This document shows positions 2,954-5,479 of a stretch of 21,526 nt of DNA, piece after piece. A model generated the notes under the pieces. That model saw only the letters and a program-made list of their open reading frames with translations, was not told where the DNA came from and ran no database searches. The DNA is from a virus, in the IMG/VR virus record IMGVR_UViG_3300034682_000399, positions 1-21,526 of that record; one strand, given 5' to 3'. Position numbers and translations under genes: made by a program. The number at the start of each line of letters is the position of its first letter. The first letter of the stretch is position 1.

Positions 2954-3739
2954 TCAGAACTCCAGGCGCTTGATTTCGGACAGCAGCGCACGGCTGTGAC
3001 GCTGGATGTAGATCTGACTCAGTTTCTTCTTGCGCGACTCGAAGTCCATGCCAACGTCAATCAGGGAGGCATTCACGCGCTGAAGGTGCTCGATGCAGCG
3101 GATTTCGCAAGGAGTCAGGTGGTCGCGGATCGAGTCAGTCGGGCTTATGCAGTGCGCCGCCCGGTATGCCTTCGAGGGCATTCCCAGTGCGATGCGGTTG
3201 ATCAGGTCGAACTCGTTGCTGAAGTGGTAGTGCTTCACTTCCTTGCCGACAGACAGGCGACCATGCTTGATGGCATCGGTCAGGGCCGGGGCCTCAAGGC
3301 GTGCGCGCTCGCGGGCCTGGCGCCCCTCAACCAGCTGGATGTGCCCGACAACCACGGCATCGAAGGTGCGGATAACGTGCAGGTGGAACTTGGCGTTTAC
3401 CCACATTGCGTAGGCGTAGATCAGTTCCTTGACGACATAGGTGCCACCATTTCGGCCCTCAATAGTCGCCACCGGCAAACTACCCGGATTTTGGGTAGTT
3501 AACTCAGCCACCATTTCGGTGAAGGATTCCGTAGCCATGAACTTGCCTGGCTCTTTGGTGCGCTTGTTCGCCCCATCGGCCACGGCAGCCTTGTGCAGAT
3601 CATTGAGGCAGTAACGGCCCTCAATATCCTGCTTGACCTTCACTCCTCCAATGGTGAGCGACATACTGCGCGCCACGAAATCGTGGTTCGCATTTTGTGG
3701 CGCAAGGGCCACGGTATTGCTTTGGATGGTCTGGTGCAT
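2954..3739 (-). CDS. KilA-N domain antirepressor-like protein
   Basis: A 261-residue protein with a KilA-N DNA-binding domain at about residues 30-131: GRYCLNDLHKAA, a central basic stretch, then GGTYVVKELIYAYAMWVNAKF. KilA-N proteins in phage early operons often act as antirepressors or regulators. The C-terminal half (132-261) is helical and not recognised. The first ATG, at 3739, has a GAGG site 6 bases upstream; a TTG 13 codons earlier (3778) is less likely. It sits just after two small RHH genes, as ant follows the RHH repressor arc in P22. The likely job is to inactivate the CI repressor (own or foreign) when expressed; this is inferred from domain and context. Confidence 0.75.
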   Translation of the reverse strand: MHQTIQSNTVALAPQNANHDFVARSMSLTIGGVKVKQDIEGRYCLNDLHKAAVADGANKRTKEPGKFMATESFTEMVAELTTQNPGSLPVATIEGRNGGTYVVKELIYAYAMWVNAKFHLHVIRTFDAVVVGHIQLVEGRQARERARLEAPALTDAIKHGRLSVGKEVKHYHFSNEFDLINRIALGMPSKAYRAAHCISPTDSIRDHLTPCEIRCIEHLQRVNASLIDVGMDFESRKKKLSQIYIQRHSRALLSEIKRLEF

Positions 3740-3746
3740 ATATGAT
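3717..3746 (+). promoter_or_regulatory. Possible antisense promoter over antirepressor start
   Basis: On the plus strand TTGCTT (3717-3722) and TATGAT (3741-3746) are spaced by 18 bases. Transcription would begin near 3753, just beyond the complement of the antirepressor ribosome site, and run about 50 bases to the terminator at 3780-3805. The -10 is good and the -35 is weak. The idea rests on the otherwise unexplained rightward terminator. Confidence 0.35.
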
Positions 3747-3779
3747 GACCTCACACAAGCGTTACGAATGCAGTACAAG

Positions 3780-3805
3780 AAGCCGGTCTAGCCACCGGCT
3801 TTTTT
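3780..3805 (+). terminator. Intrinsic terminator pointing rightward, ahead of antirepressor
   Basis: An 8-bp perfect stem (AAGCCGGT / ACCGGCTT) with loop CTAGCC is followed by six T on the plus strand, a classic intrinsic terminator. Read on the minus strand it is followed by the weaker TTCTTGT, so it may also attenuate the leftward operon. No plus-strand gene lies upstream, so its natural client is either an antisense RNA or the opposing operon. Confidence 0.75.
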
Positions 3806-3865: not shown

Positions 3866-4054
3866 TTATAAGCCCTTGCGAAACGACCGAACGTTGCTTC
3901 GGCCAGGCTCTGTTCTCGTCATCCGGTCGAGAGCCTCATTGATGATTTGTGCCGCCAGTTGCTCAGGGGTTAAGCCTCTCTGCCGGGCGAGATACGCCAG
4001 ATCAGAGTTGCCTCTCCCATCGAGCTGGATCTCCAGCTCTTTGCTTTCTGGCAC
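3866..4054 (-). CDS. Small RHH-like DNA-binding protein
   Basis: A 62-residue protein starting at GTG with a strong GAGGAGG site four bases upstream. The layout is a short strand (KELEIQLDG, 5-13), a helix (NSDLAYLARQRG, 16-27) and a second helix (TPEQLAAQIINEALDRM, 29-45), which is the RHH order, followed by a basic tail ending RSFRKGL. It lies directly between the other RHH gene and the antirepressor, as arc lies between mnt and ant in P22. A repressor role on the antirepressor is inferred. An antitoxin-like role is possible, but no toxin partner is visible. Confidence 0.55.
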   Translation of the reverse strand: MPESKELEIQLDGRGNSDLAYLARQRGLTPEQLAAQIINEALDRMTRTEPGRSNVRSFRKGL

Positions 4055-4072: not shown

Positions 4073-4264
4073 TCAGGCCACGTCAGTCTTCGCGTTAAGC
4101 TCTTGCATCATCTGGTCGAGACCGCGCTCCAAAATCTCCCTGGCGAGCACGGCCTTTTGGGTGCGCTTGAATCGAGCCATGGCCGAGAGCAGGTCATCGG
4201 CAGCCTCATCCAAGCGAACCTTGGTGGGCTTGTTGTGCAGGTGGTCGGGGTCGAAGTACGACAC
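4073..4264 (-). CDS. Arc-type ribbon-helix-helix regulator
   Basis: A 63-residue protein with a GTG start preceded by AAGGA. Residues 12-18 (KPTKVRL) form the DNA-contacting strand; ADDLLSAMARF (22-32) and TQKAVLAREILERGLDQMM (35-53) form the two helices of an RHH fold of the Arc/MetJ type. These act as dimers or tetramers on palindromic operators. It lies between cro and the second RHH gene in the leftward operon. By analogy with P22 it would repress antirepressor expression; the operator is not identified. Confidence 0.7.
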   Translation of the reverse strand: MSYFDPDHLHNKPTKVRLDEAADDLLSAMARFKRTQKAVLAREILERGLDQMMQELNAKTDVA

Positions 4265-4291: not shown

Positions 4292-4540
4292 TTAAGCGGC
4301 CGAAAGCGCGTGGGTCGGATTGCTGTCGATCTGGTTCCACGGGAACGAAGGACACAGGTCGGCACGATTCACAGCGCCATTCGTAAGCGCCTCAATCTGT
4401 AGTGCGCGCTTGGCTGGGACCGTGCGCTCTCCTGAACACCATTGGTTGACGGTTGGTGCCGCAACATTCAGCCGGCGCGCCAATTCCGCCTGGCTGCCCA
4501 GCACGCGGGATGCTTCTTTGGCTGCTTCTGCTGATTTCAT
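4292..4540 (-). CDS. cro: Cro-like HTH regulator (YdaS-like)
   Basis: An 82-residue protein, the first gene of the leftward operon and divergent from cI, so it is in the Cro position. The helix-turn-helix spans about residues 15-38 (GSQAELARRLNVAAPTVNQW), followed by VPAKRALQIEALTNGAVNRADL, typical of YdaS/Cro-like proteins of gamma-proteobacterial prophages. The ATG at 4540 has AGGAGAG upstream. It should bind the operators at 4571-4643 and help switch the phage to lytic growth. Role by position and fold; operator preference is not readable from sequence. Confidence 0.8.
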   Translation of the reverse strand: MKSAEAAKEASRVLGSQAELARRLNVAAPTVNQWCSGERTVPAKRALQIEALTNGAVNRADLCPSFPWNQIDSNPTHALSAA

Positions 4541-4596: not shown

Positions 4597-4643
4597 GCCA
4601 TTGCCTAACCGCGCTGGCGATAGGCCTAATTAGGCAATGCTTA
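4571..4643. promoter_or_regulatory. cI/cro operator cluster (OR-like)
   Basis: Three related sites are seen: a perfect palindrome TAAGGCATTACCTTA at 4572-4586, TTAGGCAATGGCTT on the minus strand (4596-4609), and TTAGGCAATGCTTA at 4630-4643 overlapping the cI start codon. A small palindrome TAGGCCTA lies at 4621-4628. The same word, TTAGGCATT, recurs at 6898-6955. Binding by CI and Cro is inferred from position and from this shared motif. Confidence 0.7.
4601..4630 (+). promoter_or_regulatory. Putative cI maintenance promoter (pRM-like), leaderless
   Basis: TTGCCT (4601-4606) and CCTAAT (4625-4630) are spaced by 18 bases. Transcription would start at about 4637, which is the A of the cI ATG. 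No Shine-Dalgarno is present before this ATG, so the cI message is probably leaderless, as it is from lambda pRM. The boxes are only moderate matches, as expected for a promoter that needs activation. Confidence 0.45.
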
Positions 4644-5479
4644 CCGGACCAGAATTAGGTGCAGCCATTGATGCTGCGCGGATCGCCAAAGGCGTATCCA
4701 AGAAACAGCTCGCAGACGACTTCCAGGTGAAGCCTCCGTCGGTACAGGGCTGGGTGAAAAACGGCCGGATCGACAAGTCCAAGTTGATGGACGTGATCGC
4801 TTACTTTTCTGACGTAGTGGGTCCTGAGCACTGGGGGCTTCGCCCTGGCTTCTCCTACGAGAGCATCCAGGAAGTCACTTCGGAACCTGTCGCAGAGCCG
4901 GCGCCAACCTCAGCTGCCGATATGGTTCGCGCCATGCTCGCCAAGCAAGGCAAGAACTTGTCGGATTCGGCGCGCGCGCAGTTGATTGCAGCCGCCGAAG
5001 CGACCGATGAGGGAAATGTGATTACCGTAGACTTGACCCGACCTGGCTTAGTCGGAGACGAGGTCCGGATCGCTCACTACGATATCCGCGCTGCAATGGG
5101 TGGCGGCCAGCTCCCCCACGATTACCCGGAAATGCTCAAGGACATTCGCGTCAGCCCCAGTCACCTGCGGGAAATCGGCGTCGAGTTCGAAGAGCATTAC
5201 CACCTGAAGGTGGTCACCGGCTGGGGCCAGTCGATGGAGCCCACCATCAAGCACCGCGACCCGCTGATCGTGAACATCAACGTCCGCGACTTCGTGGGCG
5301 ATGGGGTGTACCTATTCGTCTGGGATGACCTGCTCTATATCAAGCGCCTGCAGGTGGCTGATGAGGAGCATTACGAGATGATTTCGGACAACCCGAGGCA
5401 CAAGGATCGGCTGATCCGCAGGGATATGACCTACATCCAGGCCCGGGTGCTGCTGGTCTGGAACGCACACCTGGTATAG
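4637..5479 (+). CDS. cI: CI-like repressor with S24 peptidase domain
   Basis: A 280-residue protein with an N-terminal HTH (about residues 8-58, KGVSKKQLADDFQVKPPSVQ) and a C-terminal LexA/S24-type domain (about 145-280). The serine is S199 in GQSMEPTI and the lysine K236 in LLYIKRLQ. The linker has AAMGGGQ at 152-158 where LexA-type repressors usually show Ala-Gly or Cys-Gly, so the cleavage bond is not canonical. It should hold lysogeny by binding both operator clusters. It is divergent from cro and followed by two genes probably on the same message. The start at 4637 lacks a ribosome site and fits leaderless translation. Confidence 0.85.
   Translation: MLTGPELGAAIDAARIAKGVSKKQLADDFQVKPPSVQGWVKNGRIDKSKLMDVIAYFSDVVGPEHWGLRPGFSYESIQEVTSEPVAEPAPTSAADMVRAMLAKQGKNLSDSARAQLIAAAEATDEGNVITVDLTRPGLVGDEVRIAHYDIRAAMGGGQLPHDYPEMLKDIRVSPSHLREIGVEFEEHYHLKVVTGWGQSMEPTIKHRDPLIVNINVRDFVGDGVYLFVWDDLLYIKRLQVADEEHYEMISDNPRHKDRLIRRDMTYIQARVLLVWNAHLV

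Follow-up and report, generated by a model that had tools for sequence, protein, structure and literature searches.

The textbook examples of an antirepressor under antisense control come from a few enterobacterial phages. In P22, arc is followed by sar, which lies opposite the arc-ant gap and whose promoter, Psar, is inside the start of ant. The c4 RNA of P1 and P7 is cut out of the same transcript as its target, and loops set the specificity in c4 as they do in plasmid copy-control RNAs. The antisense control of the antirepressor by c4 is tied to P1-P7 heteroimmunity (PMC12197685). OOP and aQ/a23 of lambdoid phages are short antisense RNAs with opposite-strand promoters and their own terminators, and the a23 annotated in P22 depends on a CII-type activator.

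The locus studied here lies in a 21,526-base fragment from IMG/VR (the whole stretch analysed, hereafter the window), which is related to Pseudomonas phages and prophages. The first-pass annotation had proposed a sar-like RNA opposite the leader of an antirepressor gene, and the arrangement is the same as in P22: the predicted small RNA lies opposite ant and is complementary to the ant leader, its promoter is inside the ant start, and its terminator lies between ant and the small gene that precedes it. The equivalence does not extend to the RNA family. The Rfam sar model (RF00262) scores 97.8 bits on P22 and finds no match in the window at the gathering threshold or at E ≤ 5; Rfam scans of the window, whether at gathering or at relaxed thresholds, found nothing relevant and in particular no c4; and a covariance model built from copies of the present element (R1, see below) reaches at most about 14 bits at the P22 locus, and there outside sar. 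Moreover, the predicted RNAs are shorter (40-61 nt over all modules, compared with 68-70 nt for sar) and start 10-14 bases upstream of the ATG, whereas sar begins at the ATG itself, and, unlike sar, the element precedes many non-homologous genes in Pseudomonas phages. With an opposite-strand promoter at the start of the target and a leader terminator giving a small predicted RNA, it is, as far as sequence can tell, an analogue of sar in its working plan and not a member of the sar RNA family, and this non-homologous equivalent in Pseudomonas suggests convergent use of the same trick. It shares with c4 the (here putative) antisense control of an antirepressor, but it has a separate promoter on the opposite strand whereas c4 shares its target's transcript. 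It resembles OOP and aQ/a23 in being a short antisense RNA with an opposite-strand promoter and its own terminator, but the targets differ and there is no sign of dependence on a CII-type activator.

Table 1. Positions in the window of the candidate antisense RNA gene and the genes around it
Feature	Position	Strand	Evidence or comment
ant-type gene, 261 aa, ATG at 3739	2954-3739	-	Pfam KilA-N 4e-16 (residues 32-129); PHROG 129 transcriptional regulator 1.6e-44
Inverted repeat GCGCCAC-N20-GTGGCGC, ant codons 13-23	3670-3703	.	comparison of copies; downstream domains diverge after it
-35 element TTGCTT of antisense promoter, in ant codons 6-8	3717-3722	+	sequence; TTG or TGTACA kept in 47/47 clusters
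-10 element TATGAT, just upstream of ATG in ant sense	3741-3746	+	sequence; CATNAT/TATNAT in most clusters
Shine-Dalgarno (SD) GAGG of ant, adjoining 5' end of predicted antisense RNA	3749-3752	-	sequence
Predicted antisense RNA, 53 nt (start placed by its distance from the -10)	3753-3805	+	promoter/terminator; R1 match 3709-3805
Intrinsic terminator, 8-bp stem AAGCCGGT/ACCGGCTT (3780-3801), loop CTAGCC, U6 (3800-3805)	3780-3805	+	sequence
62-aa protein, arc position, upstream of cassette	3866-4054	-	PHROG 5333
63-aa protein, same leftward operon	4073-4264	-	PHROG 4113
Cro/YdaS-like regulator, first gene of leftward operon	4292-4540	-	Pfam YdaS 4.5e-18, P22_Cro 5e-11
CI-like S24 repressor, divergent	4637-5479	+	Pfam Peptidase_S24 6e-16; PHROG 4

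The ant-type gene is the last in a leftward order that runs from the Cro/YdaS-like gene through those of the 63-aa and 62-aa proteins and a 126-base gap to the KilA-N protein (Table 1). A TTG start at 3778 was rejected for ant because the ATG at 3739 has an SD; residues 1 to about 27 form a leader peptide that is common to unrelated proteins. The two small proteins at the arc position match no Pfam family, including Arc/RHH, and their fold matches are not significant; their resemblance to ribbon-helix-helix proteins is by eye only. The structure model of the 62-aa protein (pLDDT 71, pTM 0.41) likewise has no significant fold match, so that "Arc-like" stays unproven, and its PDB sequence matches to TALE repeats were dismissed as they cover a short motif only. 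A second terminator-like hairpin on the + strand (4022-4039) is found within the 62-aa gene, opposite the coding strand; a similar number of such hairpins is expected by chance.

Judged from the window sequence alone, the antisense promoter is weak. Its two hexamers overlap the ant start as had been proposed, with a spacer of 18 bases, and a strict consensus scan of the window did not call it (TTGCTT has 3/6 matches). A strict terminator scan also missed the terminator, because the stem runs into the T tract. The poor -35 and this overlap make the single-sequence case weak and called for a comparative test. In a protein search with ant, more than 30 viral contigs matched only the first 25-28 residues, mostly with 80-100% identity, and the remainder belonged to other families. 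The common DNA block runs from the leader hairpin through the inverted repeat, with different genes flanking it on both sides, and we refer to it as the cassette. With pattern scans the set grew to 149 distinct copies, which form 47 clusters related through recombination and hence not fully independent; a pattern scan of genome contigs yielded mostly chance matches among the matches listed.

For the promoter test, copies were picked by the hairpin and the inverted repeat and never by the promoter. All 47 clusters have, at the start codon, a sigma-70-like promoter in the antisense direction that scores 6.5 bits or more, compared with 3.2% of 1,769 control starts of other phage genes scoring at least 6 bits. 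The -10, either CATNAT or an overlapping TATNAT, makes use of the start codon's complement, the spacer is 17 bases in most copies, and the -35 starts with TTG except in one group that has TGTACA instead. A -35 of at least 3 bits is found in 68% of modules but in only 10% of the controls that have an equally good -10. Among the 35 clusters with ATNATG, a selection that leaves the -35 values independent but not those of the -10, five of the six -35 positions carry 1.1-2.0 bits, whereas the inner spacer carries mostly 0.1-0.7 bits; mean identity among 17 spacer lineages is 38%. In the TTG class the third base of ant codon 8 stays C while the amino acid varies (V, I, S, G, D, N), so that the constraint appears to act at the DNA level.

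The terminator hairpin starts 41 bases upstream of the ant ATG, and no rightward gene in the window reads into it, both as the first-pass annotation had it. In a test on 54 copies picked solely by the in-frame inverted repeat, at least 6 U of 8 follow the hairpin in the antisense direction in 49, compared with 9 of 700 controls. Of the five failures, three resemble chance repeats and two are clear cassettes with hairpins that fall below the strict rule for pairing, so that the score is 49 of about 51 modules. Terminator stems are paired in 96.5% of cells, and 29 cells show double changes against 6.8 expected in shuffles, a number that none of 500 shuffles reaches. The conservation in related phages that had been named as a check is thus borne out for promoter and terminator alike. 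An RNA of about 50 bases complementary to the leader beside the ribosome site had been anticipated, and the 53 nt predicted agree well with it. This RNA folds into a small 5' hairpin plus the terminator at -17.9 kcal/mol (z -3.6), and 0 of 200 shuffles are as good. Its predicted start in the window is about 14 bases upstream of the ATG, so that its 5' end would abut the SD; because it begins just outside, direct masking of the SD would be marginal unless transcription starts a few bases earlier. A longer RNA from a promoter beyond the inverted repeat was considered and dropped, because the sequence past the repeat is unrelated between copies.

The genes behind the cassette are diverse. Among the downstream proteins of 48 representatives are 21 Rha, 8 KilA-N, 7 ANT, 4 Bro-N and 1 HNH, and further products are a T5orf172 protein (psageB2) and a 71-aa protein without assigned family. 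A common unit of leader, antisense RNA gene and some 27 initial codons thus precedes Rha, KilA-N, BRO, ANT, HNH and T5orf172 proteins. In L451, L461 and L465 the cassette frame has only 35-37 codons and is followed directly by another gene (of replication type in L461 and L465), which suggests that the short frame is a leader peptide. In view of this diversity the cassette would serve whatever gene stands there, mostly one of antirepressor type. The antirepressor named as the target by the first-pass annotation therefore holds for the window (KilA-N) and for the relatives with Rha, ANT or Bro-N, all putative antirepressors, but at some loci the target is a leader peptide or another gene.

To explore its spread, we used R1, whose training set included the window copy and which matches the window with 60.9 bits. 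At E ≤ 1e-5, R1 matches 66 of 149 species genomes (44%) in the genus to which P. fontis belongs, with up to three copies each; these matches are no independent test of the promoter, whose region is part of the model. At most of the loci found by R1 and in the named phages, all outside model building, the hairpin, U tract, promoter and downstream ATG stay together. The remainder of the order gave only four weak matches, none with the antisense promoter and long downstream gene of the cassette, and those re-read look like ordinary terminators. Named carriers are Fyn8, VB_EV13, Shamal, vB_Pae_U9 and PAShipCat1 of P. aeruginosa, Medea1, Aurca01, psageK9 and Cruim01 of P. syringae, and also psageB2 and PseuP_222; the annotated stretches that were examined carry no RNA annotation. 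A search of plasmids found no cassette, and the open-access literature, to which our search was confined, contained no report of this element.

Comparison of the copies establishes, in sequence terms, the promoter and terminator, their position, their conservation and their exchange between genes. The interval is most likely a small cis-antisense RNA gene that is constitutive and blocks translation of the downstream gene (probability about 0.8), and we infer the following course for its transcription, pairing, effect on translation and role in lysogeny. Transcription by the host RNA polymerase would run antisense to ant, beginning some 14 bases upstream of its start codon and ending about 53 bases further on, where the intrinsic terminator lies in the leader. 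Constitutive synthesis in the lysogen and in early infection would supply an RNA with full complementarity to the ant leader, from the border of the SD across the leader hairpin. This RNA would pair with ant mRNA first by the hairpin loops and then along the leader, and the duplex would prevent ribosome loading or be exposed to RNase III. Read-through of the Cro operon would then give little antirepressor, and lysogeny would be stabilised.

An antisense RNA gene is favoured over chance or coding constraint because the promoter, start region, terminator and position are kept while the intervening sequence drifts. Chance resemblance of the promoter and terminator would fit the failure of the strict scan to call the promoter in the window, but it is contradicted by the cross-family statistics on promoter, terminator, stem covariation and -35 information, and is hardly credible. 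The conserved block could instead be a mere recombination linker at swapped antirepressor domains, with the promoter and terminator incidental, as the downstream domains swap exactly past the inverted repeat and the repeat is found at other gene junctions too. Such a linker predicts conserved sequence; what is observed is drift in which the hexamers, the 17-base spacing, the hairpin pairing and the U6 are nevertheless kept, and the P. aeruginosa phage Fyn8 lacks one repeat arm and still has the promoter and terminator, which makes a mere linker improbable.

Action at the level of transcription, in which ant expression is lowered without RNA-RNA pairing, by polymerase at the antisense promoter and by attenuation at the leader hairpin, is unlikely but deserves more weight than the other alternatives. 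The hairpin is partly bidirectional: 22/54 leaders have 5-6 U among eight sense-side bases, compared with 15/700 controls. However, the sense-side tracts are variable (only 3-6 U of 8) and often poor (CTCTCTGC, GATTCAAC) whereas the antisense U6 is nearly invariant, and a convergent block needs no terminator about 50 bases past its promoter. The promoter also has the same direction as the CI-like gene, some 850 bases away, and in some relatives a CII-like gene is just upstream of ant, as would suit a lambda pRE-like establishment promoter whose transcript runs rightward, antisense to cro, into the repressor gene, the terminator only setting the level. Against this, a strong terminator follows within some 50 bases in almost every copy, the promoter is tied to the start codon and not to cI, and no TTGC-N6-TTGC CII repeat is evident, so that such a promoter is slightly less probable even than the linker.

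The cassette, as an antisense RNA gene, probably serves widely as an RNA off-switch by which such phage genes are kept quiet. It predicts an RNA of 40-61 nt per site with specificity by hairpin type, which is testable on existing Pseudomonas small-RNA data; it offers a compact, gene-independent repression part; and it accounts for the curious conservation of the N-terminus among phage proteins that are otherwise unrelated. In the family of the L212 and L224 copies, an identical 68-base leader is combined with as many as three different terminator hairpins. The hairpin loops probably start RNA pairing, so that the hairpin type may set specificity; alternatively, the diversity may merely reflect exchange of equivalent terminators. 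More tentatively, the cassette may be a mobile antisense element swapped whole between non-homologous Pseudomonas prophage genes, with hairpin types as RNA-based immunity groups, a reading that we regard as possible but doubtful. If it is true, interchangeable hairpin types decide which prophage RNA silences which incoming phage.

The inverted repeat GCGCCAC-N20-GTGGCGC recurs at other Pseudomonas phage gene junctions, often after one stop codon and before the following SD, and could be a recombination linker or a regulatory hairpin. Several phages carry one or two exact copies, and the sites noted are L139:1670, L145:1534, L149:458, L126:7221, L185:3715 and Medea1 37774.
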